A stretch of DNA of 34,165 nucleotides, from assembly GCA_027487895.1 (NCBI GenBank), contig JAIYCS010000125.1, positions 1 through 34,165 on the forward strand. The letters are read 5' to 3'. The stretch's first letter is position 1; each line of letters opens with the position of its first letter. The position numbers and the translations under genes are program-made. The DNA comes from Sediminibacterium sp. Lineage in GTDB: Bacteria; Bacteroidota; Bacteroidia; Chitinophagales; Chitinophagaceae. Below the pieces are notes generated by a model. That model saw only the letters and a list, made by a program, of their open reading frames with translations. It ran no database searches and had not been told where the DNA came from. Positions 7,919 to 34,165 of this stretch are shown here, one piece after another.

Positions 7919-7950
7919 ATCGTTCTCGTATTTATCTTGGTTTTTTAAGA

Positions 7951-7981
7951 AGGAGGTCGTTTTTACGATCTCCTTTTTTTT
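7951..7981 (+). terminator. Rho-independent terminator of susCD, overlapping the convergent gene
   Basis: A 10-bp stem (7951-7960 with 7965-7974, one G-U pair) closes a TTTT loop and is followed by an unbroken T tract at 7975-7981. It is oriented for susCD. The loop and right arm also encode the last residues (KKRRS) and the stop codon of the convergent FAD oxidoreductase. On the minus strand the hairpin is not followed by a T run, so it should work in one direction only. Confidence 0.88.
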
Positions 7982-9900: not shown

Positions 9901-10076
9901 ACGATTTAAATTATCAAATTAAAAATAGGGCATTTTGATTATTACATTTCGAGCTTTCAATGATTCGATTTTAACTACTTCTTGCTGTGAATGATTAAAT
10001 TCAATCTTTTAATAAGTTGGGTTTGAAATGTAAGTATATTTTAGTTTAGAATTCATGTAAGTCAAACTTAATAATT
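9901..10076. promoter_or_regulatory. Divergent promoter region
   Basis: This 176-bp gap separates the FAD oxidoreductase (minus) from the GH95-like pair (plus), so it must hold promoters for both unless one is leaderless. Toward the plus gene, TATATTTT (10035-10042) and TAGTTTAG (10042-10049) each differ by one base from the -7 consensus. Neither has a TTTG at the right spacing. No convincing inverted-repeat operator was seen. Confidence 0.4.
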
Positions 10077-12404: not shown

Positions 12405-12410
12405 ATACTT

Positions 12411-14951: not shown

Positions 14952-14958
14952 GGATTTA

Positions 14959-16098: not shown

Positions 16099-16154
16099 TT
16101 GTTTAAATTTTTAGTTCGAAAGTATGGTTTTATTTATTTAAAAATACAGCTTTG

Positions 16155-16162
16155 TATATTTG
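16155..16162 (+). promoter_or_regulatory. -7 box of the small secreted protein gene
   Basis: TATATTTG is a perfect match to the Bacteroidota -7 consensus TAnnTTTG and lies 19 bp before the ATG at 16182. The implied leader is about 10-15 nt. It overlaps the alternative TTG start at 16152, which it argues against. No clear TTTG is present at the -33 position. Confidence 0.5.
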
Positions 16163-16181
16163 TACAGGCACGATTGATTTT

Positions 16182-16463
16182 ATGAAAAAGAAAGCTTTAT
16201 TCATTATACAACTATGTTTAACATTTGGCAGCATTGCCCAAGCACAAAAACATTTCGTGTATAAACCAATTCTTAAATTTACGCCTCAAAAATTGGACAG
16301 TTTAAAATACAGTCCTGTCAATATTTTAGCGCCCAACCATTATGTTAAAGGCCTTGCGTTTTTTTGCAAGCAAGAATGGCAATTTGAAAAGCGCACAAAA
16401 ATACCTTTCCGTTTTAGGTTAGGTAGTTTAGATTACGTTAATAAATTAGAAGGAAAGAAGTAG
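16182..16463 (+). CDS. Small secreted protein, conserved-hypothetical type
   Basis: From the ATG at 16182 the product has 93 residues with a clear signal peptide ([22 protein letters not shown]). The mature part is about 70 residues, basic and aromatic. A longer frame from a TTG at 16152 exists but runs through the perfect -7 box, so I reject that start. The end of the protein ([34 protein letters not shown]) resembles a short motif I recall from other Bacteroidota small secreted proteins. Its function is unknown to me. There is one cysteine, in FFCKQEW. The gene sits between the propeller protein and the GH29 genes. Its stop is separated from the convergent GH29 stop by a single base, so the two mRNAs would overlap at their 3' ends. 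Confidence 0.75.
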
Positions 16464-16464
16464 T

Positions 16465-17850: not shown

Positions 17851-17859
17851 AGGTTTTGT

Positions 17860-19539: not shown

Positions 19540-19560
19540 TTAAATAATTTTTGACCTACG

Positions 19561-22065
19561 TTAAAATGATAGTGGTGTATTGGTATTTACCGTTTCAAGT
19601 TTTCCGTTACAATAAATACTTGCTTGCTTTTGTGTGCTAGACTTAATGTACAAGCTGGTTACCCGTCCTTTATTCCATTTCATGTCAATTTCATAATTGC
19701 CTCTTGCTTTAAGGCCATTAACAGCTCCTGCGTTCCAAGCCTTTGAAATAGCGGGTAAAAGTTCTATATAACCTGAATGAGATTGAACGAGCATTTCAGC
19801 TACTGCTGCAGCACCTCCAAAGTTTCCATCTATTTGAAAAGGAGGATGTGCATCTAATAGATTTGGATACGTGCCACCCATATTGTTGTAATTTTCCTTG
19901 GTTTCATCGGGTGGAACAAACTTTAAAAGTTCACGGTACATTTTGTAGGCGTGTTCTCCGTCTTTTAGTCTTGCCCATAAATTAATACGCCAACCTTTAG
20001 ACCAGCCAGTGGTTTCATCACCTTTAATCTCTAGTGTTTTTTTAGCAGCCATCGCAATATCGGGTGTTTGCGTAAGCGTCACATGTGTGCCCGGATATAA
20101 GCCATATAAATGACTTTGGTGCCTATGCGTAGGCTCCACATCCTGCCAATCGTAATACCATTCTTGTAAATTTCCGGCTTTGCCTACTTGGTAGGGATGT
20201 AATTTATCGAGCGCTGCTTTTATATTTTTTGAAAAGTCAAGATCATTTTTAAGCACATCCTGCGCTGCAATAATTCCTAAAAATAATTCACGAATCATGG
20301 CAAGGTCTGCAGTACCACCATATAAAGTGCTACCCTTAAAACCTGTTGGGGTAATAAAATAATTTTCTGGAGAAGTAGAAGGAGAAGTAATGAGTTTTCC
20401 GTTCTTGTCAGGGATCAGCCATGCCAAACAAAATTCCGCAGCACCCTTCATAACCGGATATTCTTTTTGTAGATAGCCGGTGTCTTGTGTAAATAAAAAA
20501 TGTTCCCAAATATGTGCCGAAGCCCAAGTGCCACCCATTGGCCAATTGGCCCAACTAGGATCTCCGTCTCCAAAATTCCCTACCGGATTAGACATGGCCC
20601 ATATATCTGAATTGTGGTGCGATACCCAGCCTGGCATATTGTAAAATGTTTTAGCAGTTGTTTTGCCGGTGACAGATAGATTTTTTAAAAACTGCAAAAA
20701 CGGCATATGCATTTCTGATAAATTGGTGTTTTCTGCTAACCAATAATTTTCTTCGGCATTGATGTTCATGGTATAATTGCTAGACCATGGTGGTTGTAAA
20801 TATGAATTCCAAATACCTTGTAAGTTGGCAGGAACACCGGGGGTTCTGGAACTACTAATTAAAAGGTAACGACCAAATTGAAAATATAAAGTTTCAAGGT
20901 AGGGGTCTGCTTCTCCTTTGGCGTAGCGTTGTAATCTTTCATTGGTAGGGAGTTGTGGAGCAGCAGCGCCATCTAATTGTAAAGCAACCCTGTCAAAATA
21001 ATTTTGATAATCTTTGGTGTGTCTTTTTTTAATAGCGTCCCATCCTGTTTTAACTGCACTAGCAAGTTGGGTTTTTGCAATCGCCACCTGATCACGACCA
21101 TTTGTGGCCGGATTTTTATCAAATCCATTAAAACTTGTTGCCATCGATACATAAATAGTTGTAGCTGTTGCATTTGAAATTTGAATACTGGAATCGGTAT
21201 AGGTTATTTTACCATCATTAGATACTACTTGAATTTGTGTCGAAAAACGGGTTCCTTTTTTACTATCAAATACCACCGAATTAGGTTTTTTTCCTAAATA
21301 GTTAGGGTCGGCTTTAATGGGTGCGGTACCACTCACTTCTAAAACATTGTTTGCCGTTTTTGTTGTGTATTTAAGTAAAGATTCAAATGCGATACTATAG
21401 TTTAGTCCACCCTTTTGTTTTGACGTTAGTTTAATGGCAAAAATTTTATCGGGATGTGAAACCAGGTATTCTCTTTCGATGGTGTTGTTGCTCGATTCAA
21501 TTTTAACAGCGGCTACAGCATCATGTATATTTAACTCACGGTAATAATTACTAATGAATGGATCATTGTTAAAGGTTAATAAAAGTGTACCGAGTGGTGC
21601 GTACGACTCCGAAAATTTACCTTGTAATTTTTTAATAAGCGTTTGCGCTTTTTTATAATTGTTGTCCGCTAAAGCTTCTCTAACGTCTGGCAAATGTTTG
21701 TATGCATTTGGATTCATATTGGCATTTACTGGTTCGCCAGACCATAGTGTTGCATCATTTAAATATATTTTATCGATAGAAATACCCCCAAATACGGTGG
21801 CTCCGTGCTGGCCGTTACCAAGTACTAAGGCTTCTTCAAAATATTTGGCAGGGCTTTCATACCATAATTTTAATGGCGCATTAATGGCTGCGTTAATGGC
21901 AGCGCTTGATGTTATGTTGGAAGCTCCTTTAGTTGTAGTAGTCGCTTTGTTGATTCCAGATTTCGCACCCGCTTTTGCTGGCTTTACAGTTGTTGGTTTT
22001 TTTTGAGCCAACCCTAAAAAAGTAGATGTTGTAAATAGGGTAAAGAGTATCGCTTTGCGTATCAT
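19561..22065 (-). CDS. GH95 alpha-L-fucosidase (or alpha-L-galactosidase)
   Basis: GH95 enzymes invert alpha-L-fucosides, classically alpha-1,2-fucose, and some act on L-galactose. The 834-residue protein has a signal (1-20) and then an unusual Lys/Ala/Thr-rich low-complexity linker (about 21-63). The canonical domain order follows: N-terminal sandwich with EALVLGNGQHGATVFGG, an (alpha/alpha)6 barrel from about 360, and a C-terminal sandwich. Catalytic features match Bifidobacterium AfcA: Asn434 and Asn436 in TMNINAEENYW, general acid Glu567 in SPSTSPENYF, and Asp746 in FQIDGNFGG. It is the first gene of a three-gene operon (GH95, GH29, GH29), and its upstream region is shared with the divergent CBM9-like gene. 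The family call is very secure. Confidence 0.95.
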   Translation of the reverse strand: MIRKAILFTLFTTSTFLGLAQKKPTTVKPAKAGAKSGINKATTTTKGASNITSSAAINAAINAPLKLWYESPAKYFEEALVLGNGQHGATVFGGISIDKIYLNDATLWSGEPVNANMNPNAYKHLPDVREALADNNYKKAQTLIKKLQGKFSESYAPLGTLLLTFNNDPFISNYYRELNIHDAVAAVKIESSNNTIEREYLVSHPDKIFAIKLTSKQKGGLNYSIAFESLLKYTTKTANNVLEVSGTAPIKADPNYLGKKPNSVVFDSKKGTRFSTQIQVVSNDGKITYTDSSIQISNATATTIYVSMATSFNGFDKNPATNGRDQVAIAKTQLASAVKTGWDAIKKRHTKDYQNYFDRVALQLDGAAAPQLPTNERLQRYAKGEADPYLETLYFQFGRYLLISSSRTPGVPANLQGIWNSYLQPPWSSNYTMNINAEENYWLAENTNLSEMHMPFLQFLKNLSVTGKTTAKTFYNMPGWVSHHNSDIWAMSNPVGNFGDGDPSWANWPMGGTWASAHIWEHFLFTQDTGYLQKEYPVMKGAAEFCLAWLIPDKNGKLITSPSTSPENYFITPTGFKGSTLYGGTADLAMIRELFLGIIAAQDVLKNDLDFSKNIKAALDKLHPYQVGKAGNLQEWYYDWQDVEPTHRHQSHLYGLYPGTHVTLTQTPDIAMAAKKTLEIKGDETTGWSKGWRINLWARLKDGEHAYKMYRELLKFVPPDETKENYNNMGGTYPNLLDAHPPFQIDGNFGGAAAVAEMLVQSHSGYIELLPAISKAWNAGAVNGLKARGNYEIDMKWNKGRVTSLYIKSSTQKQASIYCNGKLETVNTNTPLSF

Positions 22066-22187
22066 ATTCAGTGTTAAGTGATTAGAACTTGACTTAAAAG
22101 TAAAAATAAGTTCGCATAATTAATGAAATAAAACGAAGCTATGTTTTGTTATTTTCTTACATTTAATAAACCATCAAAAGCTTGTAC
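22066..22187. promoter_or_regulatory. Divergent promoter region between the GH95 operon and the CBM9-like gene
   Basis: This 122-bp AT-rich gap must serve the GH operon on the minus strand and the CBM9-like gene on the plus strand. On the minus strand, plus 22095-22102 reads TACTTTTA, one base from the -7 consensus, without a good -33. ACTTGACTTAA at 22087-22097 is loosely like the CTTAAGT motifs upstream of susC, but too degenerate to claim as a shared operator. Confidence 0.35.
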
Positions 22188-22910
22188 ATGAAGTACCTGA
22201 CAAAGCTATCGGCGATCATTTTTACTCTTTTGCTCGTAAATACAACACGGGTGTTGGCGAGCTCGGTAGCATTTCAGGATACGCTTAAGGTAAATAAAGT
22301 ATTACCCTTTGAAATGGATGGGGCTGGTAGCCATCCAAACTGGAATAATACGAGTTGGATAAACCTCATTCAACTCGATTCTAGTAGTTTGGATTATCCT
22401 TCAAAATTTAAAATATTGTATGCCGATAGTGGAGTGTATGTTTTGTTTTCTGGGCTTGATAAAAAAATAACCTCGCCGTATAAAAATGATTTTGAGGATT
22501 TATTTAGAGCCGATGTTTTTGAAGTTTTTTTTCATCCCGAACCTAGCACGCCCATTTATTTAGAGTATGAAATAAATGCCTACAACGCCGAGCTCGTGCT
22601 TCTTGTGCCACATTTAAACAAAAAAACATTTGGCTGGGCTCCCTGGAAATATACTGGCACCAAAAAAGTAATTAAAAAAGTACAGGTACACCAGCAAAAC
22701 AACGAAATGCACAAGTGGACTGCCGAACTATACTTTCCATTTAAATTATTTATACCCTTACAAAATTTGGACGTAAAAAAAGGCACTTGTTGGAATGCCA
22801 ATTTTTATAGACTTGATTACGACGACACAAAAATGATTAAATGGGCCTGGTCACCCATTGTAAAAAGCTTTCATGAATTTGAAAAGTACGGTGTTATCCA
22901 GTTCAACTAA
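22188..22910 (+). CDS. Secreted carbohydrate-binding family 9-like protein
   Basis: The 240-residue product (ATG at 22188; a TTG at 22182 would add only two residues) carries a signal MKYLTKLSAIIFTLLLVNTTRVLA. It is then a single CBM9-like beta-sandwich spanning the rest. Recognisable strands are LPFEMDGAGSHPNWNNTSW near the start, FKILYADSGVYVLFSG, ADVFEVFFHPEPSTPIYLEYEIN, WTAELYFPFKLF, and CWNANFYRLDY with the closing WAWSPIVKSFHEFEKYGVIQF. Such stand-alone CBM9-like proteins are frequent in Bacteroidota PULs, where they probably bind sugar ends, although none of the aromatic binding residues can be assigned with confidence here. It is transcribed away from the GH operon, and its stop is 7 bp from the convergent transporter stop. 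Confidence 0.88.
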   Translation: MKYLTKLSAIIFTLLLVNTTRVLASSVAFQDTLKVNKVLPFEMDGAGSHPNWNNTSWINLIQLDSSSLDYPSKFKILYADSGVYVLFSGLDKKITSPYKNDFEDLFRADVFEVFFHPEPSTPIYLEYEINAYNAELVLLVPHLNKKTFGWAPWKYTGTKKVIKKVQVHQQNNEMHKWTAELYFPFKLFIPLQNLDVKKGTCWNANFYRLDYDDTKMIKWAWSPIVKSFHEFEKYGVIQFN

Positions 22911-22917
22911 ATAAGAT

Positions 22918-23991
22918 TTAGTTTTTTGGTTCCCGTTTATGCCAGTAGGATGCTAAAATAGATCCCGTGATATTCATAAACGGCCCAAACACAGCAGGCG
23001 CGAGTCCCATAGTGGCAGCTTTGCCTAATTTTTCGGCAAGGCCAGAAGCGAGTCCGCCATTTTGCATACCTACTTCGATTGCAATGGTCCTACAATCTTT
23101 TTCGCCCAGTTTAAATACGCGTCCAAACCAATAACCAAAAAGGTATCCCGAAGTGTTGTGTATAAACGATACTAAAATTAATAAAGGTCCAATGGTAAGT
23201 AAGCTTTTACTTCCAGCCGCTGTGATAACAATAATAATAGTGGCAATACCAAACATAGAAACAGAAGGCATGAGCTTGTCTAGCCAAGTTGTTTTTCCTT
23301 TGATATATTTATTAAATAAAAGTCCTAAAACAATAGGAACAATTACTATTTGCAAAATATGCACAAACATATCGCTGGCTTTAATTTCTATGAATTGTCC
23401 ACCAAGTACTTTCATTAAAAAAGGCGTTAAAAAAGTAGCTAAAATGGTGCTTACACTTGTGAGGGTTACAGAAAGTGCAAGATTTGCCTTTGCTAAATAA
23501 GACATCACATTAGAAGCTAAACCACAGGGCATAGAGCCAATGAGTACAATACCAGCCGCAATTTCTGGTTCAAAATTAAATAAGGTAGCAAGTGCAAAAC
23601 CCATCAATGGCATAAATGTAAAATGCCCAATGAGTCCAATGAATACTGCTTTTGGTTGTTCGGCTACGCGTTTAAAATCTTGTAAGCCTATTTCGGTACC
23701 CATACCAAACATGATAATTTGAATGAGTGGCGTAATGAGTCCTTTTAATTTAAATCCACCTATTTCAATAAAATATTGCGGATAGTTTAGGGTAATACAA
23801 ACGCATGCTAAAATAACCATGGTAAAACTAAGACCTTGATAGGTTTTGGTATGTTTTACGCCCAAGCTTAATGATAAAAAACCAAGTGATATACATAAAC
23901 CTAAAAAACTTGTTTGCTGCAAGGCATATAAAATACCCGTGAGTGCAAATAAGGCTAAGGAAATATAAAAGTATAGTTTGTAGTTTTTCAT
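22918..23991 (-). CDS. Bile acid:sodium symporter (BASS) family transporter
   Basis: The 357-residue integral membrane protein shows about ten hydrophobic helices and the BASS/SBF (PF01758) signatures. These are the crossover segment GSMPCGLASNVMSYLAKANLALSVTLTSVSTILATFLTP and the C-terminal ECRT-like helix region DCRTIAIEVGMQNGGLASGLAEKLG. Members import organic anions with sodium, including bile acids, pyruvate, pantothenate and 2-keto acids. Two extra N-terminal helices (about 1-70) precede the core. It is the last gene of the five-gene minus operon, 21 bp after the RraA-like gene. That placement suggests import of the small carboxylate made by the exported enzymes encoded upstream (inference). 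The family assignment is firm; the substrate is open. Confidence 0.92.
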   Translation of the reverse strand: MKNYKLYFYISLALFALTGILYALQQTSFLGLCISLGFLSLSLGVKHTKTYQGLSFTMVILACVCITLNYPQYFIEIGGFKLKGLITPLIQIIMFGMGTEIGLQDFKRVAEQPKAVFIGLIGHFTFMPLMGFALATLFNFEPEIAAGIVLIGSMPCGLASNVMSYLAKANLALSVTLTSVSTILATFLTPFLMKVLGGQFIEIKASDMFVHILQIVIVPIVLGLLFNKYIKGKTTWLDKLMPSVSMFGIATIIIVITAAGSKSLLTIGPLLILVSFIHNTSGYLFGYWFGRVFKLGEKDCRTIAIEVGMQNGGLASGLAEKLGKAATMGLAPAVFGPFMNITGSILASYWHKREPKN

Positions 23992-24012
23992 CTGTTTATT
24001 TTTTAAAGAAGC

Positions 24013-24930
24013 TTACCAGGTTCTTTTTTCTAAAAATTTTTCGAGTGAAGCTTTTGTGATTTGAGGTTCGTTGGGGTGCGCTACTATCCAGTTTAAAAAA
24101 GCGGTTTTAATGGTTTCATTCCACTGACTATCTATTTGTCCAGCAGTAAATGTTCCAGCCTTTAATACATCTTTTGAAAACCTGTCTCTCACCGCAATAA
24201 ATTCGGCGGTAGCTACTACTTTTTCTGCCATGTGCGCAGGTATAAATAAAACGCCTTCTCTTTCTGAGAGTACGAGGTCGCCAGGTAGTACAACGGCTGC
24301 GCCAATTCTGATGGGGCTGTTAAGTCCAATGAGTACTACTTCTTCTAAAAAGGAAGGATGAAAATCCCTAACGTACGCGTTAAAGCCTTTGATTTGTGCA
24401 AGCCCCGATAAATCTCTTGCGGCGCCATCAAAAATAACACCATTGCCTGTTTTATTAAATATGGATGCGCCTAAGTTATCGCCAATGAGTGTGCCTTGCG
24501 CAATTTTTCCAAATGCTTCGGCAACATATACGTCTCCTTTTTGAAGTACTTGAATAGGCCATGCGTTGGTATTGCCAGTGCGACCTTCATTTTTTCCACG
24601 CTCTTTAATAAGGGCTTCTATATCGGGTCTAGTAGGGCTATAGCGCGCGGTAACAACCCTGCCTACAACAGGAACATTGTCATGCACCATTTTCCAATTA
24701 CCTTCGAATTGATTTTTATAACCTTCGTTATAAAGTACTTGCCATGCTTCTTCGATACCAATTTTTTTGGCTCTTTCTATAATGGCATCAGGTATTTTAG
24801 GTCTACCATCTTCAAATCTTTCACCCTTCCACTGTGATGTCAGGTATATAAGTTCCGAAGCAGGAAACTGTTGCGCATTTGATATATAAAAGCAAGCAAT
24901 AAGTAATAATAAGAGACCCGTTTTTTTCAT
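24013..24930 (-). CDS. Exported RraA-family protein (HMG/CHA-aldolase-like)
   Basis: RraA-fold proteins include class II 4-hydroxy-4-methyl-2-oxoglutarate / 4-carboxy-4-hydroxy-2-oxoadipate aldolases, which release pyruvate, and the RNase E regulator RraA. The 305-residue product has a Sec signal (MKKTGLLLLLIACFYISNAQ), so a role on cytoplasmic RNase E is excluded. The core (about 85-250) contains GDNLGASIF, and the divalent-metal and substrate motif DGAARD (Asp168, Arg172, Asp173), followed by the usual RIGAAVVLPGDLVLSEREGVLFIP. The metal-binding motif is intact, so it may act as an aldolase or related lyase/decarboxylase. Its start lies 5 bp from the PLP enzyme's stop, indicating coupled expression and a shared pathway. 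The fold is certain; the reaction is inferred. Confidence 0.88.
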   Translation of the reverse strand: MKKTGLLLLLIACFYISNAQQFPASELIYLTSQWKGERFEDGRPKIPDAIIERAKKIGIEEAWQVLYNEGYKNQFEGNWKMVHDNVPVVGRVVTARYSPTRPDIEALIKERGKNEGRTGNTNAWPIQVLQKGDVYVAEAFGKIAQGTLIGDNLGASIFNKTGNGVIFDGAARDLSGLAQIKGFNAYVRDFHPSFLEEVVLIGLNSPIRIGAAVVLPGDLVLSEREGVLFIPAHMAEKVVATAEFIAVRDRFSKDVLKAGTFTAGQIDSQWNETIKTAFLNWIVAHPNEPQITKASLEKFLEKRTW

Positions 24931-24935
24931 ACAAT

Positions 24936-26159
24936 TTATTTTACAGCAGCTTCTAAAACTTCTTTTAAACGTTTAGCAACAATTACATCTTCACCTTCTT
25001 GCAATGACCATGCAGTCATGCCAATATTATCTTTTCCACCCACCGATTCGATAGATGGTGATCCGTTGCGAAGGTCTAGACGAAGTTGCTCGCCAGTTTT
25101 AGCAATTTTACTGTAGTCGAAACTGATGTTTAAAGTAGGGGTAACATTGCCAAGTACTGGAGTAGAAATTTTTGTTGTAACACCAGGAACCGAATCGGCA
25201 GCTGCTTGTATTTTTTTTATTCTTTCTAAAAAAACAAGGGCTTCTGCATCATGGTCAATTTTTACAAATTCTTCTACAGCAACCATCATGCCTAAAATTT
25301 CTTCTTTGTTTACTTTCATTCCTCTACCAATGGTTTCACCACGTGGAGGCATGGATAATCTTGCTGCTTTAATAAGGTCTTTTTTACCCATTAATAAACC
25401 CGCACTTTGTGGGCCACGGAGGGCTTTACCGCCAGAAATAGCAACAAAATCAAAACCCATTTCATTGAAGCGCCATAAGTTACTTACAGGTGGAACGTCT
25501 GCGGCGATATCAATAGTGGTAGGGATACCATATTTTTTTCCAATAGCTACCCACTCTTCGTGCTGAATTTGTCCTTTATCCGATTGCACATGCAAAAAGT
25601 GCATCGCTGCCGTGTTTGGATTGATGGCTTTAATTAATTCGTCGAGGGTTTCTACCATTACAATTTTAACACCCGTGTTGGTTAATGCCTGATTGTATCC
25701 AATGGCGTGTGATTTTTGACAAATCACTTCTGTTTTCATGCCCGTGCCTTCGAGTTTTGGAAGCTGCTTTACTTTTACAGGATCCATACCTGTTAATATG
25801 CCGGCCATACCAAGAGTTAATGCAGCAAATGCACCACTTGTTACAACAACTGCTTCGGCTCTTGTGATTTGAGCAAGTCTTTCACCTACTTTATCTTGTA
25901 AGTCGTCAAGCATGCAAAATTTATGCGAGGCTTGTCTGATAGCTTCTACTGTTGCAGGGCGCATGAGTGTTGCAGTCATAGCGGTATAAGTACCAGCTGC
26001 ATTAATAAATGTGCGCACACCTAGTTCACTAAACAAGTCGCGTTTTTTAGCCACTTCGAGTGGTGTTGATTTTGGTGCCGCATTGGCAAGTCCACTGGCA
26101 ATAGCACCACCAGCAAGCGGTGAAATTGAAATATATTTGATGAGGTCTCTGCGTTTCAT
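24936..26159 (-). CDS. Exported PLP-dependent enzyme of the SelA / D-glucosaminate ammonia-lyase-like family
   Basis: The 407-residue protein belongs to the SelA-like fold-type I PLP group that includes D-glucosaminate-6-phosphate ammonia-lyase (DgaE). That enzyme eliminates water and ammonia via an enamine. Visible motifs are FINAAGTYTAMTATLM (about 51-66), VVVTSGAFAALTLGMAG, DIAADVPPVSNLWRF and the PLP-lysine segment ISGGKALRGPQSAGLL with Lys245. The N-terminus MKRRDLIKYISISPLAGG is a good twin-arginine signal (RRDLIK), matching export of a folded cofactor enzyme. A true selenocysteine synthase is unlikely because export would separate it from tRNA. It sits 16 bp after a RidA gene and 5 bp before the RraA-like gene, an arrangement that suits an enamine-forming lyase. 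The fold is secure; the substrate is unknown. Confidence 0.88.
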   Translation of the reverse strand: MKRRDLIKYISISPLAGGAIASGLANAAPKSTPLEVAKKRDLFSELGVRTFINAAGTYTAMTATLMRPATVEAIRQASHKFCMLDDLQDKVGERLAQITRAEAVVVTSGAFAALTLGMAGILTGMDPVKVKQLPKLEGTGMKTEVICQKSHAIGYNQALTNTGVKIVMVETLDELIKAINPNTAAMHFLHVQSDKGQIQHEEWVAIGKKYGIPTTIDIAADVPPVSNLWRFNEMGFDFVAISGGKALRGPQSAGLLMGKKDLIKAARLSMPPRGETIGRGMKVNKEEILGMMVAVEEFVKIDHDAEALVFLERIKKIQAAADSVPGVTTKISTPVLGNVTPTLNISFDYSKIAKTGEQLRLDLRNGSPSIESVGGKDNIGMTAWSLQEGEDVIVAKRLKEVLEAAVK

Positions 26160-26175
26160 AGTTTTTTTGTTTTAA

Positions 26176-26649
26176 TTAGTTTGCAATTGCAATACAATCC
26201 ATTTCTACAAGTGAATTACCCGGTACGCCACCATAAGTAGCTACTGTTGTTCTTACAGGCGGGTTGGCCCCAAAGCGACCTTTGTATACTTCGTTCATTT
26301 GCTTGTAATCATTTAAATCGGCGAGGTATACATTTACTTTTAAAACTTTTTCCATAGAGGATCCAGCTTTAATCAGTTCTTTTTCCAATTCTTTTAATAC
26401 ATGATCGGTGTGTGCTTTGATGTCACCTTCAAAGTGCGCACCTTTTCCAGCTACAAAAACCATTCCTCCAAATTTTGTAGAACCTGAAAAAAGTGGAACG
26501 TCCTGATCGTACTGTACATTAAATACTTCTTTTTGTGGAGCTGCATCACTGTTATTACTAGCAGCATTTGCAGCTATTGTTGTGCCTGTAACACCCAGTA
26601 GGCCTGCAAACATTTTTCTGAAAATGGAGCGGCGGTTGTTTGTTTTCAT
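26176..26649 (-). CDS. Exported RidA-family enamine/imine deaminase
   Basis: RidA proteins hydrolyse reactive 2-aminoacrylate-type enamines/imines released by PLP enzymes, giving keto acids and ammonia. The 157-residue product starts with MKTNNRRSIFRKMFAGLLG and a hydrophobic run ending TTIAANAA, a twin-arginine-like export signal. The RidA domain occupies about 45-157 with FGGMVFVAGKGAHFEGDIKAHT, KVNVYLADLNDY and the conserved Arg133 in PPVRTTVATYGGVPGNSLVEMD. That Arg is the catalytic residue for imine hydrolysis in E. coli RidA (Arg105), so activity is likely. It lies between a lactonase-RidA fusion (38 bp upstream) and the PLP enzyme (16 bp downstream) in one operon. Confidence 0.93.
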   Translation of the reverse strand: MKTNNRRSIFRKMFAGLLGVTGTTIAANAASNNSDAAPQKEVFNVQYDQDVPLFSGSTKFGGMVFVAGKGAHFEGDIKAHTDHVLKELEKELIKAGSSMEKVLKVNVYLADLNDYKQMNEVYKGRFGANPPVRTTVATYGGVPGNSLVEMDCIAIAN

Positions 26650-26687
26650 AGCGGTTTATTTTGTTTTTTAAAAATTTATTTTACTTT

Positions 26688-28253
26688 TTATTTGAGTTCA
26701 ACAATCATTTCTATTTCTACCGAAATATTATTAGGTAATGCAGCTACACCAAGGGCAGATCTTGCATGCTTTCCTCTCTCTCCAAAAATTTCTACCATTA
26801 AATTAGAAAATCCATTCATCACTTGTGGTTGCTGCGTAAAATTGGGCTCCGAGTTTACAAGTCCTAATACTTTTACAATGCGTTTTACTTTATTTAAATC
26901 ACCGATATAGGCTTTTAAAGTAGAGATCATTGAAATGCCCGTGAGTCTTGCCGCTAGTTGGCCTTCTTCGATGGTTACATCTTTACCTAAATGACCAAAC
27001 ATTTGACCCCCACCTGGTTTATCTGGTCCATGACCCGATAAATATACCAGGTTGCCTACCTGCACTTGTTTTACATAATTGGCAATAGGAGGTACCACAG
27101 GAATTAATTGAATGTTTAATTGTTTGATGCGTTCTTCGGGATTAACCTCCATGGGCTCGTTACTAAATACCAAACAAACTGGGCCGCTTACCGCCATGTC
27201 CTGATTGGTGTTGGTTAGTTTTCCGGTGTTGTCATCAAAAGAAAATATTTGCACTTTATCTTCGCTTTGACTCGCTACAAAAACAAAGTTTCCATTGGGT
27301 GAAAAGCTAAAATTCCGAGGCCTTTGCGCTACTGGCTGATGGTACATTTTGGTAAGCTTGCCATCTGCTTCAATTTTAAAAACCGTTAACTGCTCGCTCG
27401 TAACACGGTTGGTGGTAATAAGCCATTTACCACTAGGTGAAATATGAATATCGCCACTTCCTTTTGTAGCAGTTGTTTTTGCAGTATCGGCTGTAATGGT
27501 TTGTATTTTTTCTAGCGTATTAGCACGAATAGAAAACACATCAACAGTACCCGATAATTCATTGATTAAATAACCGTGTGTGCCACTATTATTAAAGGTA
27601 AAATGCCTTGGGCCGTTGCCGGGTGTGATGGATACACTGGTGTACTTTTCATCGAGTAAACCATCTGCATAAATTTTATGCATGTAAATTTTATCGGCAC
27701 CTAAATCTGTAACCAATAACTGGGTATGGTCAGGTGTTAAAACAACATTGTGTGCATGCGAAGCTTCTTGTCTTGCTTTATGAATGCTAGATCCACTGTA
27801 ATTTATTTCTTGTGCAATGGGTAGCAGTGCTCCATTATCTAGCGTTTTAAAAACACTGACACTACCAGAGGTATAATTAGCCGTGTAAACGGTTTTACTT
27901 TCGGGCCTAGATACAATAAAGCAAGGGGCTGCACCTTTGATAGGCTCTTGATTTAGTTTTTGAAATTGATTGCTTGCATCTAATTGATACGCACTTACAA
28001 AAGAAGCGTCTTTGCCGCCTTCCGTTACAGTATACATTGATTTTCCATTATTTGCTAATGTCAAATAAGAAGCATTTGCATTTTCTTTTGTATACAACAA
28101 CTTAGGCTTCCCGGTAACTGCATTAACGGCATATACTTCAATACCGGGGTTTCCTTTTTTAGTATAGGAGCCCACAATGAGCTGGTGCTGGGCAGTATCA
28201 GGCGCAAAAAAATGTAGGATATTACTAACAAGTAGTGTAGCAATCATGTTCAT
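26688..28253 (-). CDS. Lactonase (YbhE/Pgl propeller) fused to a RidA-family domain
   Basis: The 521-residue protein joins two families. After a short signal (about 1-21) residues 22-360 are a seven-bladed propeller of the 6-phosphogluconolactonase YbhE/COG2706 type (LIVGSYTKKGNPGIEVYAV, SHAHNVVLTPDHTQLLVTDLG, GNGPRHFTFNNSGTHGYLINE, SGDIHISPSGKWLITTNR). After a linker, residues about 385-521 are a RidA-family domain (KQVQVGNLVYLSGHGPDK, TLKAYIGDLNKVKRIVKVLG, HARSALGVAALPNNISVEIEMIVEL) with Arg498 in the expected catalytic area. The frame is continuous, so this is a genuine fusion in the sequence given. It is the first gene of the five-gene operon and suggests that lactone hydrolysis and enamine/imine clean-up are consecutive or co-localised steps in the periplasm. 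Both domain calls are strong; the combined function is inferred. Confidence 0.92.
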   Translation of the reverse strand: MNMIATLLVSNILHFFAPDTAQHQLIVGSYTKKGNPGIEVYAVNAVTGKPKLLYTKENANASYLTLANNGKSMYTVTEGGKDASFVSAYQLDASNQFQKLNQEPIKGAAPCFIVSRPESKTVYTANYTSGSVSVFKTLDNGALLPIAQEINYSGSSIHKARQEASHAHNVVLTPDHTQLLVTDLGADKIYMHKIYADGLLDEKYTSVSITPGNGPRHFTFNNSGTHGYLINELSGTVDVFSIRANTLEKIQTITADTAKTTATKGSGDIHISPSGKWLITTNRVTSEQLTVFKIEADGKLTKMYHQPVAQRPRNFSFSPNGNFVFVASQSEDKVQIFSFDDNTGKLTNTNQDMAVSGPVCLVFSNEPMEVNPEERIKQLNIQLIPVVPPIANYVKQVQVGNLVYLSGHGPDKPGGGQMFGHLGKDVTIEEGQLAARLTGISMISTLKAYIGDLNKVKRIVKVLGLVNSEPNFTQQPQVMNGFSNLMVEIFGERGKHARSALGVAALPNNISVEIEMIVELK

Positions 28254-28384
28254 GGCAATCGGTTATAATTTGAATGAGAAATTAATCAAATAATGTCAAA
28301 AAAGGATTTCTATTCACCTATAATTTATGCACTTTCCTCGTTTTTTTATAAATTACATACAATCCTCAATTAAACTTTCAATGT
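28254..28384. promoter_or_regulatory. Divergent promoter region between the RidA/PLP operon and the amidohydrolase gene
   Basis: This 131-bp AT-rich gap separates two divergent units and probably holds both promoters, which suggests co-regulation. TATAATTTG at 28264-28272 (plus strand) is a -7-like element with one extra spacer base. I found no perfect TAnnTTTG in either direction and no clear inverted repeat. Confidence 0.35.
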
Positions 28385-29635
28385 ATGAATAAGAACCTAC
28401 TCATTATTACCTTGTTTGTGGCCCTATCGCTTCAGTTGAAAGCTCAGGCTCCTGCTAGTTTTGATGTACTTGTCAAGGGTGGTCATGTAATTGATCCTAA
28501 AAATGGTATTGATGCTGTAATGGACATTGCCATTAAGGCGGGTAAAATATTTAAAGTTGGAAGAAACTTACCTGTTTCAGAAGCCAAGCAAGTAGTAGAT
28601 GCTACCGGATTAAAAGTAGTACCTGGTATTATTGATATGCATGCACACGTTTTTGCAGGCACGCAGCCAGATCATTATTTAAGTGATGGATTAAGTGCGC
28701 TCATGCCCGATGGTTATACATTTAGAGTAGGTGTTACCACCGTGGTAGATTGTGGTGGTGCTGGATGGAAAAATTTTGCAACCTTCAAAAAAAATGTAAT
28801 TGATATTTCTCAAACAAGGGTACTCTCTTTTTTAAATATTGTAGGAGAAGGGATGCGCGGTGGAAATTATGAGCAGGACATTGCAGACATGAATCCAAAA
28901 CTTTCAGCAAATACCGCTAAGCAGTACAAAGATTATATAGTTGGTTTTAAACTGGCGCATTTTAACGGCGCCGATTGGACGCCTACAACGCGCGCAGTAG
29001 AAGCGGGCAAACTCGCTGAACTACCTGTTATTATTGACTTTGGTGGCTCTCAACCCAATTTATCAATTCAAGAATTATTTTTCAAACACCTTCGTCCAGG
29101 TGATATTTATACCCATACCTATGCTGCATTAAATGGCGCTAGAGAAGAAATTGTTGACGCCAATAATACCTTAAAACCTTTTGTGTTAGAAGCACAAAAA
29201 AGAGGTATCATTTTTGATGTTGGTTATGGTGGTGCGAGTTTTAATTATACACAAGCGATACCTGCAATAAAAGCAGGATTGTTTCCTAACACCATTAGTA
29301 CCGATTTGCATACCGGTAGCATGAACAGTTCAATGAAAGATCAATTAAGTGTGATGTCTAAATTTATGAATTTAGGTATGCCTCTTTTTGAAGTAATAAA
29401 AGCAAGTACATGGAAGCCCGCACAAGTAATTAATAGAACCAACCTAGGTCATTTAACAGAAGGTGCAGAAGCAGACATTGCCATTTTAAATATCAGAAAA
29501 GGAAACTTTGGTTTCTACGATAAAACAGGATACAAAGTAAATGGCACCGAAAAATTTGAATGCGAACTCACTATCAAAGGCGGTAAAGTGGTATACGATT
29601 TAAATGGTTTGGCAAATCCTATTTACGTAAAGTAG
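28385..29635 (+). CDS. Exported amidohydrolase/deacetylase-family metallohydrolase
   Basis: The 416-residue protein has a Sec signal (MNKNLLIITLFVALSLQLKAQ) and an amidohydrolase-superfamily barrel with a binuclear metal site. The site shows His86 and His88 in MHAHVF, Lys189 in GFKLAHF (probably carboxylated), His244 in YTHTYAAL, and Asp307 in STDLHTG. The fragments VKGGHVIDPKNGID and GHLTEGAEADIAIL form the small beta-sandwich. It resembles the Atu3266/EF_0837 group, which hydrolyse N-acyl or acyl groups from D-amino-acid-like or hydroxy-acid substrates. That group is typically encoded next to SelA-like PLP enzymes, as here. The gene diverges from the lactonase-RidA operon. Its tail overlaps the convergent dehydrogenase gene by 17 bp. 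Deacylation preceding the PLP step is inference. Confidence 0.9.
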   Translation: MNKNLLIITLFVALSLQLKAQAPASFDVLVKGGHVIDPKNGIDAVMDIAIKAGKIFKVGRNLPVSEAKQVVDATGLKVVPGIIDMHAHVFAGTQPDHYLSDGLSALMPDGYTFRVGVTTVVDCGGAGWKNFATFKKNVIDISQTRVLSFLNIVGEGMRGGNYEQDIADMNPKLSANTAKQYKDYIVGFKLAHFNGADWTPTTRAVEAGKLAELPVIIDFGGSQPNLSIQELFFKHLRPGDIYTHTYAALNGAREEIVDANNTLKPFVLEAQKRGIIFDVGYGGASFNYTQAIPAIKAGLFPNTISTDLHTGSMNSSMKDQLSVMSKFMNLGMPLFEVIKASTWKPAQVINRTNLGHLTEGAEADIAILNIRKGNFGFYDKTGYKVNGTEKFECELTIKGGKVVYDLNGLANPIYVK

Positions 29636-31406
29636 CCGCTGCATTTAATTTGGCTTCGGCCTCTTTTTGTAACTGCATTTCTTTTCGTTTTAAGAGCCTA
29701 AGTCGTTGGCGTACAATGGTTACAGAGGTTTTAGAAATTGAGTCTGCGTTGTTCCCGAAATTTTGCCTGATATAGGTAAGGATACTTGCTATATCTCTAT
29801 CTGGTAGTTGCGAAAATTTAGGCATCGCTCCATGAAATGGTTGCCCGTTAATTTTTATAGGTCCTTCAAGTCCTTTTAATAATACGCCAATAAGGGTATC
29901 CTTATTACCATTTACCCAATCGGTTTTTGCAATGGATGGAAATCTAATACCATCGCCTTGCCCGTTTTGTTGATGACAAACACGGCAGTTTATTTGGTAT
30001 AGTTTTTCGCCACCTAATACTACTTTATCTTTTTCTAAATTATCTTTTACGATGTCCGGATTTTTTACATAGGTTCTGTTTTCTCTAGCTTTCATTGGCG
30101 CTAGATTTTTTTCAGAAAAATTTTCTTTATTTCCTTTGTATTGAATTTTCCAAATCTTCCCTTTTTTAGAATCCGAAATATACAGTGAACCGTCAGGTCC
30201 TTGTGCAAGTCCCATGGGGCGGTGCTTACTATCACTGGTATTTACAAGTGTATCTTTTCCAGTGAAACCATCGGCAAATACTTCCCATTTTTGAGGCTTG
30301 CCATTTATAAACGGAACAAACGCTACAATATAACCTGCCTGCGGATATGGGGCACGAATGGTAGATCCGTGAAAGGCAATAAATGCGCCATTTTTATAGC
30401 GCGCAGGAAACTGATCGCCAGTATAAAAAAGTAGATCGTTGGGTGCGTAATGGCCCGGAAAGCCTACAATGGGTGTTTCAATATTTTTATCTGTGTTTTC
30501 GAGTATGCCATCGCCACCATACTCAGGGTTCACCATTACCTTACCCTTCATTTGATCAAAATAATAATAAGGCCAACCTGCATTGGCACCCGGCTTTAAT
30601 TTATAAAAAGCTTCGGAAGGTAAAACAGCACTCTGCCATTCGTTGTAAAATTGTGGCCAGCTACTAGAAAGTCCATCTCTGCCGTGCCCTACACAATACA
30701 AAGTGTTATCCTGAGTATTCCATGTCATGGCAACAAGGCTTCGTAAACCTGTTGCAACTTTAATACCATCGGTGGTTCTAAATTGATTGAGTTTATTTTC
30801 ATCAAACATCCAAACACCTGCATTAGAATCTAAAATAGGGCAGGGCTTCATGCCCGGTGATCCTGGCAATCTATTTTCTACTTGGCAAGCATCGGAAGGA
30901 GCGCCAAAAGGAACAAAAATATGTCCCTTGCCATCAAAGGCTAGTGGTTTACCATCATGCTCGCGTGGTTGTCCGCTATCAATTACTATAAACTCTGCCT
31001 TGCTAGAAGGCACCATTTCACCCTTCTTTAATTTATAACGGTACACCAGCATTTCTGAACTGGTATATAAGTATCCGTTATGAATGCGCATGCCAGTGGC
31101 GTATGCACCTTCACTAGCGATGGGTCCAAAATTTTTAATGATATCGGCGCGGCCATCATTGTTTTCGTCTCTTAAAACATAGTTCATGCCTCCCTCAATG
31201 GGCTTATTGGCTTTCACATAAATATCTCCATTGTCATTTACTGCCAAATGCCTAGCCCTGCCCGGTAAACTATCTACCACCACAGTGGCTTCAAAACCAT
31301 CTGGTAAAAATAGGCCACCATTTTTTTCACGCAAGCAACTGGTGCAAACCATTGCAATCAGGCATAGTGCCATGAAATAGCGGGGTTGTAACCTTGTAAA
31401 TGGCAT
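29619..31406 (-). CDS. Sorbosone/glucose dehydrogenase-like propeller fused to cytochrome c, lipoprotein
   Basis: The 595-residue protein has a lipoprotein signal (ALCLIAMVCTSC). Next comes a six-bladed propeller (about 35-425) of the L-sorbosone dehydrogenase / soluble PQQ-glucose dehydrogenase type: LPDGFEATVVVDSLPGRARHLAV, VATGLRSLVAMTWN, NAGWPYYYFDQMKGK, and HRPMGLAQGPDGSLYISDSKKGKIWKI. A c-type cytochrome follows (about 460-550) with haem site Cys474-Cys477-His478 (CRVCH) and probable axial ligand Met528 in GAMPKFSQLPDRDIASILTYIR. A charged helical tail (KRKEMQLQKEAEAKL) ends it. Such proteins oxidise sugars or sugar aldehydes outside the cytoplasm and pass electrons to respiration. Whether PQQ binds is not provable here. 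Its C-terminal codons overlap the convergent amidohydrolase gene. Confidence 0.92.
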   Translation of the reverse strand: MPFTRLQPRYFMALCLIAMVCTSCLREKNGGLFLPDGFEATVVVDSLPGRARHLAVNDNGDIYVKANKPIEGGMNYVLRDENNDGRADIIKNFGPIASEGAYATGMRIHNGYLYTSSEMLVYRYKLKKGEMVPSSKAEFIVIDSGQPREHDGKPLAFDGKGHIFVPFGAPSDACQVENRLPGSPGMKPCPILDSNAGVWMFDENKLNQFRTTDGIKVATGLRSLVAMTWNTQDNTLYCVGHGRDGLSSSWPQFYNEWQSAVLPSEAFYKLKPGANAGWPYYYFDQMKGKVMVNPEYGGDGILENTDKNIETPIVGFPGHYAPNDLLFYTGDQFPARYKNGAFIAFHGSTIRAPYPQAGYIVAFVPFINGKPQKWEVFADGFTGKDTLVNTSDSKHRPMGLAQGPDGSLYISDSKKGKIWKIQYKGNKENFSEKNLAPMKARENRTYVKNPDIVKDNLEKDKVVLGGEKLYQINCRVCHQQNGQGDGIRFPSIAKTDWVNGNKDTLIGVLLKGLEGPIKINGQPFHGAMPKFSQLPDRDIASILTYIRQNFGNNADSISKTSVTIVRQRLRLLKRKEMQLQKEAEAKLNAAATLRK

Positions 31407-32383: not shown

Positions 32384-32932
32384 TTACTTAATAATGATTG
32401 GTAAGTTTAATTGAATGTCACTATGACCTACGTTAGGGCCGTCGTTAGGGCCTTTTAAAGCCGTTTTGTGCATGAGTTTAAATAATAAACTGCCGTTACC
32501 TGCACTTGCTGTTTGCCAAGTACTTAAAAATCCAATAGGGTATCCGTTTTTATCCTTGTCTGTTTTTTGAATTGTTACAGATACACCTGAAGGAATAAAA
32601 TAAAACTCGTGTGAAGTGGCTTGCATTAAAACGGTGGCACTTACATCTTTAATAACGCCATTTGCAATATTGTAAATTTTTACAGTTACATTATATTGTT
32701 TGTTGCTATTGATTTTAATAGTGTCTATTCGGGAAGGAGGATTTCCGCCATCGCCATCTGGATCTTCGATCACAAAATTTGTTGTAGCGCCACCCGTTTC
32801 TGCAAATATGAGTTCTATTTTATTAATCGCTTCGTGCTCATTTTCGTCATTGGGGTTGCTTACTTCTTTAGAGCAGCTACCCAATAGGATCATGAAAACA
32901 GCGCATATAGCACCTAGTTTTATTTGTTTCAT
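32384..32932 (-). CDS. Lipoprotein partner of a TonB-dependent receptor
   Basis: The 182-residue product carries a clear lipobox (MKQIKLGAICAVFMILLGSC, Cys20) and a beta-rich mature domain. An acidic loop, EDPDGDGGNPPS (about 55-66), looks like a calcium-type binding loop. His residues occur in NEHEAINK, TSHEFYF and KLMHKTAL. I recognise the layout as the Bacteroidota lipoprotein often encoded right after metal- or cofactor-type TonB receptors, but I know of no established function. Its ATG overlaps the receptor's TGA by four bases (ATGA), so translation is coupled. A co-receptor that hands ligand to the barrel is inference. Confidence 0.8.
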   Translation of the reverse strand: MKQIKLGAICAVFMILLGSCSKEVSNPNDENEHEAINKIELIFAETGGATTNFVIEDPDGDGGNPPSRIDTIKINSNKQYNVTVKIYNIANGVIKDVSATVLMQATSHEFYFIPSGVSVTIQKTDKDKNGYPIGFLSTWQTASAGNGSLLFKLMHKTALKGPNDGPNVGHSDIQLNLPIIIK

Positions 32933-34165
32933 AATTTTAATTTAATTCTGAGGTTAATAGATCTACCTGGTTCGTCATTAAAATACCTAAACCTGTTCAT
33001 ATAGTCTCTGTAGGTTTGGTTGAGTAAATTAACAACCGTTAATCCTACACTGATTTGCCTTTTCCCAACTGCTACATCGCTACTAAAATCGAGGTTTAGA
33101 AGGCTGTATGCATTTGGTGGTGGAATATAATCGAGTATACTAACAGGAATTCTAGTTTGTTGCATGATGTGCAAGTAGCGTAATTCAATAGCAGCGTTTT
33201 GTAGTAATTTATTGGCAAAAGAATAGGTAATATCTCCTTCAATTCTGTTGGAAGGCATTTGAATGATCCATTCTTTGGTATCACTATTTTTTGCCCACAA
33301 AAGTGCCGTTTTAGCACCTGCCATAAAAGAGCGGTTTATTGTTTTGTGTACACTAAAATCGATCCCTCTTAAAACAGCGTTGCTCTGAACATACCTAAAA
33401 GTTGGATAAGCACCTCTTAGTGTTAAAGTGGCCGGAACAGATGGTATTAGGTTAATAAAATCAGTAATGAAATTATTATAAACACTAAAATCAAACTGCC
33501 AGCTACTATCAGATTGATATTTTAACTGCGTAGAAAAGTTTAAGGCTTTTTCACTTCTAAGATTTCCATTACCAATTTCAAAACTTGATGTTCCGTGGTG
33601 TAAACCATTTACATAGAGTTCATTTACTTGCGGTGCCCTCCAGGCGTATGCGCCATTAATAAGCCATTTAAAATTTGGCGTTATTTTATAGGTGGCGCCG
33701 AGGGTTCCAGAAGCATTGCCCCATGTACGGTTGGCAGCTGTAATACTATCTGATTTATTACGGTAGGTTCTTAAGTGTCTATAATCAAATCTAGCACCAG
33801 CGTCAAACATCCAATTGTTTACGTTGTAGTTATGAATGCTATACACAGCAATGTTTTTTGTGCGAAAATTTGGAATAAAAAAACGACTACCTGCCCAAAT
33901 GTTTTCTTGCAGCATACCCACTAACCCAATATTGCTACTTATTTTTTTAGAAGGCGCAGTTTCAAAATTAACATCAGTCATGGTGGTTGAAATGTCTAAA
34001 TCCAATTCTGGTCGATTGGAGAGCATTGCCCGGTCAAATTCTTTTCTTAGATTCTTTTGATACGATACCAAGAGATTGACTTTATTGTTGTTGGGTAAGT
34101 AAAACTGTGATTTAGATTTTACCGTGTAGTGCTGTACATTTTGTTTTGGCCTTCCAATAGCATAA
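32929..34165 (-). CDS. TonB-dependent receptor, C-terminal part (N-terminus outside window)
   Basis: The frame is open from the right window edge to the TGA at 32929-32931, so about 412 C-terminal residues are visible. The ATG-less, TTG-like start near 34071 is not a real start, because coding continues through KSKSQFYLPNNNKVNLLVSYQ up to the edge. The visible portion is transmembrane barrel: WMFDAGARFDYRHLRTYR, KITPNFKWLINGAYAWRAPQVNELYVNGLHHG, NLRSEKALNFSTQLKYQ. The end is the receptor signature LLNQTYRDYMNRFRYFNDEPGRSINLRIKLKL. The APQVNELY and YMNRFRY motifs fit siderophore-, cobalamin- or metal-type receptors rather than SusC. It heads the operon with the lipoprotein and small barrel. 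The ligand is not readable; metal uptake is the best guess. Confidence 0.93.
   Translation of the reverse strand, partial: YAIGRPKQNVQHYTVKSKSQFYLPNNNKVNLLVSYQKNLRKEFDRAMLSNRPELDLDISTTMTDVNFETAPSKKISSNIGLVGMLQENIWAGSRFFIPNFRTKNIAVYSIHNYNVNNWMFDAGARFDYRHLRTYRNKSDSITAANRTWGNASGTLGATYKITPNFKWLINGAYAWRAPQVNELYVNGLHHGTSSFEIGNGNLRSEKALNFSTQLKYQSDSSWQFDFSVYNNFITDFINLIPSVPATLTLRGAYPTFRYVQSNAVLRGIDFSVHKTINRSFMAGAKTALLWAKNSDTKEWIIQMPSNRIEGDITYSFANKLLQNAAIELRYLHIMQQTRIPVSILDYIPPPNAYSLLNLDFSSDVAVGKRQISVGLTVVNLLNQTYRDYMNRFRYFNDEPGRSINLRIKLKL

Follow-up and report, generated by a model that had tools for sequence, protein, structure and literature searches.

How could enzymes of sugar breakdown that appear to carry export signals work outside the cytoplasm, where such chemistry is not expected? 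This question is raised by a locus of Sediminibacterium sp. (assembly GCA_027487895.1, contig JAIYCS010000125.1), of which a stretch of 34,165 nt, referred to here as the window, was analysed as a whole. A first-pass annotation had described in it five minus-strand genes with gaps of 5-38 bp and a divergent amidohydrolase gene, and both the coordinates of these six ORFs and the gaps have been confirmed (Table 1): 38 bp separate the lactonase-RidA fusion from RidA, 16 bp RidA from the PLP enzyme, 5 bp the PLP enzyme from RraA, and 21 bp RraA from the BASS transporter. The family names given to the six products agree with their profile matches. The six genes are thus real, but the set was incomplete, as it missed the next gene, which encodes a PQQ-type dehydrogenase with a cytochrome c domain, itself possibly a lipoprotein. 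The region between the divergent genes is presumed to hold the promoters of both.

Table 1. Features of the module in the window, with predicted export signals and profile matches.
Feature	Coordinates	Strand	Signal	Basis
CBM9-like protein	22182..22910	+	Sec-type	PF16011, 30.8 bits (cut-off 25)
BASS-family membrane transporter	22918..23991	-		PF01758, 143.1 bits (cut-off 24.3)
RraA-like protein	24013..24930	-	Sec-type	PF03737, 56.8 bits (cut-off 24.5)
DgaE/SelA-like PLP enzyme	24936..26159	-	Twin-arginine	TIGR01437, 166 bits (below cut-off 385)
RidA	26176..26649	-	Twin-arginine	PF01042, 70.5 bits
7-bladed lactonase fused to YjgF/RidA domain	26688..28253	-		PF10282, 312 bits; PF14588, 64.5 bits; PF01042
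Intergenic region, 131 bp, between divergent fusion gene and amidohydrolase gene	28254..28384	.		Read directly
Amidohydrolase	28385..29635	+	Sec-type	NF006689, 437 bits (above cut-off 371)
PQQ-type sugar dehydrogenase (AA12/soluble glucose dehydrogenase-like) with C-terminal cytochrome c (CxxCH)	29619..31406	-	Sec-type	

Gene content was compared across 54 loci spanning 17 kb or more, the window included; these are the best matches to the PLP enzyme and not a random sample. The amidohydrolase is encoded in all 54, RidA in 49, the dehydrogenase (as a cytochrome fusion or as a split GSDH gene) in 46, and a lactonase in 30, where two unrelated families, PF10282 or PF08450, occur in one role. The CBM9-like gene is a recurrent partner (23 loci). 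Within the flanks covered, the dehydrogenase is absent from 8 loci, the lactonase from 24, and RraA from 38. Counted over 21 named groups, the amidohydrolase and Rid appear in 21 each, the dehydrogenase in 17, the lactonase and RraA in 9 each, and BASS in 8, and the median gap between 386 same-strand neighbours is 35 bp. This co-occurrence, together with the signals described below, bears out the linked exported module of the first-pass annotation, the relatives being signalled and clustered rather than cytoplasmic and dispersed.

On balance, we favour reading the module as an oxidative route for the breakdown of an N-acetylated amino sugar outside the cytoplasm, the sugar being most likely N-acetylglucosamine, N-acetylgalactosamine, or a 6-deoxy relative. 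In this pathway, the PQQ-type dehydrogenase would oxidise C1 and pass the electrons to its own cytochrome c, the lactonase would open the aldonolactone, and the amidohydrolase would take off the acetyl group. The Tat-exported PLP enzyme would then eliminate water from the 2-amino-3-hydroxy acid and release a free enamine, which, as enamine or imine, the two exported Rid domains would turn into a 2-keto-3-deoxy acid and ammonia. Finally, RraA would cleave the keto acid to pyruvate and an aldehyde, with BASS importing the pyruvate, or BASS would import the keto acid itself; in second gene sets of relatives, the last step would fall to an MFS permease, a 2-keto-3-deoxygalactonate-kinase-like protein, and a KDPG-type aldolase in the cytoplasm.

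It is the presence of the dehydrogenase in the module that gives the lactonase a role and the substrate its class. This protein meets the Pfam cut-off (PF07995) and shows the fold of PQQ-dependent sugar dehydrogenases (AA12, sGDH); its residues His123, Arg195, and Arg369 are invariant among the 15 sequences compared with one another. No PqqE over the cut-off was found in the genome, and the same test gave none in its 14 controls either. Solved relatives of the lactonase part of the fusion include the gluconolactonase PpgL (PDB 6igb, E 5.8e-49), a PF10282-type lactonase named periplasmic; the solved chain covers the lactonase part only, the Rid domain being a feature of the window fusion. In the amidohydrolase, proposed from its family to act as a deacetylase of an aldonic acid, the presumed metal residues H86, H88, K189, H244, and D307 are kept in 90-91 of 91 sequences, while Asp218 aligns with His in 3 of the 4 solved relatives shown. 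The open-licence literature searched yielded nothing on cog3964/Atu3266.

The order of reactions in the first-pass annotation is supported for deacylation, elimination, and enamine hydrolysis; the cleavage of the keto acid by RraA and the import through BASS are uncertain, as RraA is found in 16 of the 54 loci, BASS in 20, and 5 carry DgoK and Eda. The RraA-like protein is proposed to be a class II keto-acid aldolase, although every NCBIfam aldolase model matching it scores below its cut-off. Its Arg-Asp pair is conserved in 24/24 homologues, and D-x20-R-D, the motif of RraA-fold class II aldolases, is complete in the window protein and in 19 of the 24 in all, the first Asp being lost in five. 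BASS, proposed as an importer of pyruvate or a keto acid, has as its best NCBIfam model the ketopantoate/pantoate carrier PanS (241.9 bits, below the equivalog cut-off of 400).

It is rather unlikely, though more probable than the other alternatives, that the exported chemistry ends at the 2-keto-3-deoxy acid, with BASS importing the keto acid or its product and with RraA being no aldolase but possibly a dehydratase/decarboxylase. Such an activity, on 2-keto-3-deoxyglucarate, is described for FlDet, an RraA-family protein of Flavobacterium (PMC8563752), so that cleavage to pyruvate by RraA is inferred. The missing first Asp, the best match of BASS to a ketopantoate/pantoate carrier model, below its cut-off, and the 7 of 20 BASS loci without RraA in the flank point in the same direction. 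Against it, the invariant Arg-Asp pair corresponds to residues that in HMG/CHA aldolase are reported to stabilise the pyruvate enolate and bind the metal (PMC5065237), and RraA and BASS are associated: they occur together in 13 loci, BASS being present in 13 of the 16 loci with RraA vs 7 of the 38 without it (Fisher p 2.3e-5 when loci are counted and 0.03 when groups are). In the DgoK-type ending, genes for an exported PLP enzyme and amidohydrolase are followed by those for DgoK (PF05035, 177 bits) and Eda (TIGR01182, over cut-off), both unsignalled, and for an MFS protein, whose relative in L022 is nearest to a galactonate-transporter model, below that model's cut-off; no RidA of their own was found near these sets. 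A strict mutual exclusion of the two endings was rejected, since one of the five loci (L038) carries both, in neighbouring sets.

With respect to the substrate, it is improbable that the same exported module acts on an N-acyl amino acid (e.g., of the N-acyl-D-serine/threonine type), in which case the amidohydrolase would be an N-acyl-amino-acid deacylase and the PLP enzyme a dehydratase, with RidA clearing 2-aminoacrylate-like products. RidA proteins are indeed described as acting on enamines from threonine deaminase and the like (PMC9529869), the deacetylase OngB of the ong pathway is likened to D-aminoacylases (PMC9537276), and the dehydrogenase and the lactonase are missing from the loci counted above. 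However, their presence in 46 and 30 of the 54 loci, the KDGal-kinase-like and KDPG-aldolase partners, and the action of one of the PLP enzyme's two closest solved relatives on D-glucosaminate-6-phosphate all argue for an amino sugar. A point against the favoured reading is that the genome encodes a NagB over the cut-off, which means that amino sugars have another route.

The window neighbours include alpha-fucosidases (GH95, GH29). An L-fucose pathway was considered and rejected, because fucose requires neither a deacetylase nor a PLP lyase, and fucosidase relatives lie near the module in few of 76 loci, many with short flanks (GH95 in 2, GH29 in 2 and 3), L031 and L032 being the only ones apart from weak matches (one for GH29 in L051, 24% identity). 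A 2-amino-6-deoxy sugar may still be the substrate. A glycoside hydrolase partner was likewise considered and rejected: of 143 flank representatives, 99 were scanned, and each Pfam family matched at most 3 of them (the other 44 consist chiefly of long or truncated ORFs). The representatives are one per sequence cluster, and the scan is therefore silent on how often a cluster recurs, which was read separately.

The PLP enzyme, proposed to be an amino-sugar-acid ammonia-lyase, has a Lys at the position of K245 in 95/95 sequences. Its nearest solved relatives are DGL (PDB 7lc0), which converts a beta-hydroxy-alpha-amino acid to a 2-keto-3-deoxy acid, and Cap15. DGL, whose phosphorylated substrate is supplied by a PTS, retains His163 and Arg301/332/346, whereas none of the 95 exported enzymes has Arg in those three columns (T342, V373, and W384 in the window) or His in the column of His163 (S193); the column of the carboxylate Arg226 holds K in 76/95 and R in 18/95. 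The alignment is gapped and uncertain in the shortened loop around His162/163, where a His stands at column 162 in 5/95 and somewhere in columns 160-168 in 47/95, the window's included, so that another proton donor is possible. An equivalence of the KSHAIGY of the PLP enzyme with the KSHH of DGL was rejected by the alignment. As the H163A mutant of Salmonella DGL is reported to release the enamine (PMC9529869), the lack of His163 suggests that the exported enzymes may do the same.

The fold of the PLP enzyme is as close to the O2-dependent Cap15 as to DGL, and a Cap15-like oxidation whose imine would be hydrolysed by the exported RidA is a distinctly improbable alternative: the Arg residues 301, 332, and 346, found in none of the exported enzymes, are all present in Cap15, and the linkage to DgoK and a KDPG-type aldolase fits a loss of water leading to 3-deoxy acids. 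In the preferred pathway of water loss, RidA is proposed to be an enamine/imine hydrolase. Both Rid domains exceed the PF01042 cut-off of 27.3 (70.5 and 52.7 bits), and an Arg, presumably the catalytic one, is kept in 70/70 RidAs and 21/21 YjgF-type domains.

The location of these reactions was addressed with a home-made signal rule, which requires a K/R close to the N-terminus and, behind it, a hydrophobic stretch 11 residues long that contains no charge. It was applied to members from 77 loci, with internal protein blocks as control, leaving out those whose N-terminus was not covered (PLP enzyme 1, amidohydrolase 4, PQQ-cytochrome 1, gluconolactonase-like 4, CBM9 3, fusion 1). The rule was passed by 95/95 PLP enzymes (internal blocks 18/486), 70/70 RidAs (0/73), 24/25 RraAs (1/96), 84/96 amidohydrolases (24/508), 48/54 PQQ-cytochromes (5/443), 13/14 stand-alone PF10282 lactonases (3/71), 11/17 gluconolactonase-like proteins (2/69), and 25/26 CBM9 proteins (6/76); most of the 12 amidohydrolase failures resemble Sec signals interrupted by N, Q, or H. 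Proteins expected to be cytoplasmic fail it (DgoK 0/7, Eda 0/6, and the other RidA of the genome), its one false positive being the core of the cytosolic 7lc0. Another hydrophobicity test proved badly suited to Tat signals, the internal control passing in 94/95 PLP proteins. The claim that every enzyme carries a signal holds for the PLP enzyme and RidA (Tat) and for the amidohydrolase and RraA (Sec), that is, for most members; the exception is the lactonase-RidA fusion (0/11), whose hydrophobic start without a preceding K/R represents a weak uncharged signal only.

The PLP enzyme and RidA are predicted Tat substrates, with RR ahead of the hydrophobic run and within the first 14 residues (95/95 and 69/70, respectively) and TatC encoded in the genome. 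The match of the PLP enzyme to 7lc0 starts at window residue 41, leaving an N-terminal extension, and its AF2 model shows a low-confidence stretch (15-36) ahead of the domain. That the proteins are cytoplasmic and their extensions serve something else is very improbable, since, against a home-made rule with one false positive and a fusion that fails it, there stand the RR pairs, an extension that precedes the 7lc0 match, the only other PF01042 match of the genome outside the window (contig C17), which starts at the fold without an extension, and a cytochrome c, a protein that matures outside the cytoplasm.

The closest known systems are the cytoplasmic ong pathway and the Tat-exported PvdN and PtaA. 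The ong pathway of strain ACAM 620 (OngB, OngC, OngD, KdgK) is described as degrading oxidised chitin, N-acetylglucosaminate being deacetylated and then deaminated to KDG (PMC9537276). In that account, oxidation begins on the polymer by an LPMO and the predicted cytoplasmic OngB and OngC act downstream of an SSS importer, whereas in the window module the proposed deacetylase and the PLP enzyme have export signals and are accompanied by a sugar dehydrogenase and by a lactonase; the likeness is drawn from the description, where OngC is compared to D-amino acid deaminases. PvdN and PtaA of Pseudomonas are PLP enzymes exported folded via Tat, but, as presented in PMC6206403, they tailor a siderophore and do not belong to a catabolic set with RidA. 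No paper describing the module was found in the open-licence literature, among the titles and abstract starts listed. An adjoining amidohydrolase, SelA-like lyase, and keto-acid aldolase set is also known from the cytoplasmic EF_0837/EF_0838/EF_0839-type cluster of Enterococcus, whose TIGR03583 model was matched below its cut-off (P0006, 210 bits, cut-off 432).

More tentatively, and with less than even confidence, it can be postulated that the whole degradation of amino sugars, C-C cleavage included, takes place outside the cytoplasm by an oxidative and non-phosphorylative route. In it, a lyase that has discarded the proton donor of its cytoplasmic relative would hand its enamine to dedicated exported RidAs, and nothing but pyruvate or a keto acid would enter the cell. 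Electrons would then go straight to cytochrome c, ammonia and acetate would be shed outside, and reactive enamine chemistry would be kept from cytoplasmic PLP enzymes. If true, a range of Bacteroidota genera would run amino-sugar catabolism outside the cytoplasm, and the place of carbon and nitrogen release would change, the ammonia and acetate being usable by neighbours. RidA would also gain a defined partner in catabolism, namely a lyase that lacks the histidine whose loss makes DGL release enamine, and this would bear on OngD, the RidA-family gene of the ong pathway, described as essential and of unexplained role (PMC9537276).

The reading that best fits the module of the window is an exported, oxidative pathway for amino sugars. 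The window is an entire contig (G000:C57; 34165 bases) within a 2.21-Mb assembly, and the six ORFs that the first-pass annotation described in it, a closely spaced minus-strand run (gaps of 5 to 38 bp) with a divergent amidohydrolase, are all present, with family names matched by Pfam and NCBIfam. That annotation overlooked the adjoining dehydrogenase gene; the module is not only real, but bigger than claimed.

Coordinates of the module, its surroundings and two aberrant genes in relatives
Position	Strand	Product	Remark
3211-22065		Fucosidase-rich polysaccharide utilisation genes	SusC/SusD, DUF5703 protein, two GH95-type, two GH29-type
7963-9900		FAD-dependent oxidoreductase	Start MNRRNFIGTLG, Tat-like
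22182-22910	+	CBM9-like exported protein	
22918-23991	-	BASS transporter	
24013-24930	-	RraA	
24936-26159	-	PLP enzyme (DgaE/SelA-like)	
26176-26649	-	RidA	
26688-28253	-	Lactonase-RidA fusion	
28385-29635	+	Amidohydrolase	
29619-31406	-	Sugar dehydrogenase domain (PF07995) and cytochrome c domain	Convergent with amidohydrolase, 17-bp overlap
32929-34071		TonB-dependent receptor beta-barrel fragment	By contig end; relative in L032
L021:9058-9738		PLP enzyme	Shortened gene
L096:11227-12371		Amidohydrolase	Gene split in two pieces

The PLP enzyme was found (E <= 1e-20) in 8 of 395 genomes sampled from the phylum, the window's own among them. Fourteen stretches from the other seven were compared for neighbours, revealing an amidohydrolase and RidA in 7/7, a PQQ-cytochrome dehydrogenase and a gluconolactonase-like protein in 6 each, BASS in 5 and RraA in 4. 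A contig scan seeded with 12 aligned PLP enzymes (A1) yielded 478 relatives, the best 80 of which gave 76 loci (the best-80 loci, with handles such as L031); the nearest to the window's enzyme are titled Sediminibacterium sp. (99% identity) and Chitinophagaceae (98%), and all record titles of the loci listed name Bacteroidota groups except L044, "uncultured bacterium". Counting the window, 54 loci are 17 kb or longer. The genes found in these are PLP (54), amidohydrolase (54), RidA (49), PQQ-cytochrome (44; either dehydrogenase form, 46), lactonases (PF10282 19, gluconolactonase-like 18, either 30), the recurrent CBM9-like neighbour (23), BASS (20), RraA (16), YjgF-type Rid (13), MFS (6), DgoK (5) and Eda (5); these shares do not represent a random sample, since the loci are the best PLP matches. 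With the window and 10 others excluded, the remaining 43 of these 54 loci fall into 21 groups that bear a name: 19 genera, a Prolixibacteraceae MAG and a Chitinophagaceae strain. Amidohydrolase and Rid appeared in all 21 groups, dehydrogenase in 17, lactonase and RraA in 9 each, and BASS in 8. Dyadobacter and Spirosoma are among the carriers in culture. Same-strand neighbours in the best-80 loci lie within 100 bp in 290 of 386 pairs.

Other clusters recurring by eye in the best-80 set were SusC-like (25/77 loci), sigma factor (25), SusD-like (22) and anti-sigma factor (20); GSDH (22/77) and cytochrome c (19/77) genes were already counted as dehydrogenase or adjoin it. By BLAST, SusC and SusD relatives occur in 28/76 and 21/76 best-80 loci. 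Among these 76, fucosidase-rich genes lie close to the module only in L031/L032, the nearest relatives, and the FAD-dependent oxidoreductase has no relative.

Export was scored with a home-made rule (an uncharged hydrophobic run of 11 residues after K/R near the protein start), using internal blocks as control. In the best-80 loci it was passed by 95/95 PLP enzymes (internal blocks 18/486), 70/70 RidAs (0/73), 24/25 RraAs, 84/96 amidohydrolases and 48/54 dehydrogenases, with a twin arginine in 95/95 PLP enzymes and 69/70 RidAs; the presumed cytoplasmic DgoK (0/7) and Eda (0/6) did not pass. One false positive was the core of 7lc0, the solved DGL. The proposal that every enzyme is exported holds by this rule for PLP, RidA, RraA and amidohydrolase, but not for the lactonase-RidA fusion (0/11 in the best-80 loci), which fails because no positive charge precedes its hydrophobic start and which, judged from gene context, is likely exported. 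The window's genome encodes TatC, and its other RidA (contig C17) starts directly at its fold. PvdN and PtaA are precedents for Tat export of PLP enzymes (PMC6206403).

Two possible pathway endings can be distinguished. Among the 54 longer loci, BASS accompanies RraA in 13/16, versus 7/38 without RraA (Fisher p 2.3e-5 when loci are counted and 0.03 when groups are), a pairing that fits cleavage outside followed by pyruvate import. RraA relatives can perform other keto-acid chemistry, as in the case of FlDet (PMC8563752). Six loci (L038, L078, L085, L091, L093 and L096; the fragment L084 was left out) have, behind a second exported PLP-amidohydrolase pair, a DgoK (PF05035) that lacks a signal, a KDPG/KHG aldolase and, in five cases, an MFS permease. 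This DgoK/KDPG-type ending points to a 2-keto-3-deoxy hexonate as branch compound. No own RidA was found in the flanks of these six sets and L084; since RidA-bearing sets lie elsewhere on the same contig (L038, L096) or in the same assembly (L078, L084, L091), RidA could serve them in trans. A longer exported PLP paralogue (PLPb; 517-573 aa where complete, twin-arginine signal in 8/8 tested) occurs in L046, L050, L053, L085, L093, L094, L096 and L105. The split amidohydrolase of L096 and the short PLP gene of L021 are either decaying copies or assembly errors.

Candidate sugars are GlcNAc, GalNAc, their 6-deoxy relatives and muramic acid; PF05035 alone is insufficient to fix which, and a genome-wide search found no DgoK in the window's genome. 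No PqqE over cut-off was found there, nor in 14 controls in that search, which would mean either uptake of PQQ or a different cofactor. Residue 218 of the amidohydrolase is Asp, as in 88/91 relatives. Three of four solved relatives have a His at the aligned position, so that a metal ligand may have changed.

Among the titles and abstract openings listed by searches of open-licence papers, none describes such a module; the closest published pathway found, the ong route, is cytoplasmic (PMC9537276), whereas the window's module is read as exported. The window's genome carries a single PLP gene of the exported kind and also NagB, so that the module need not be its sole amino-sugar route.
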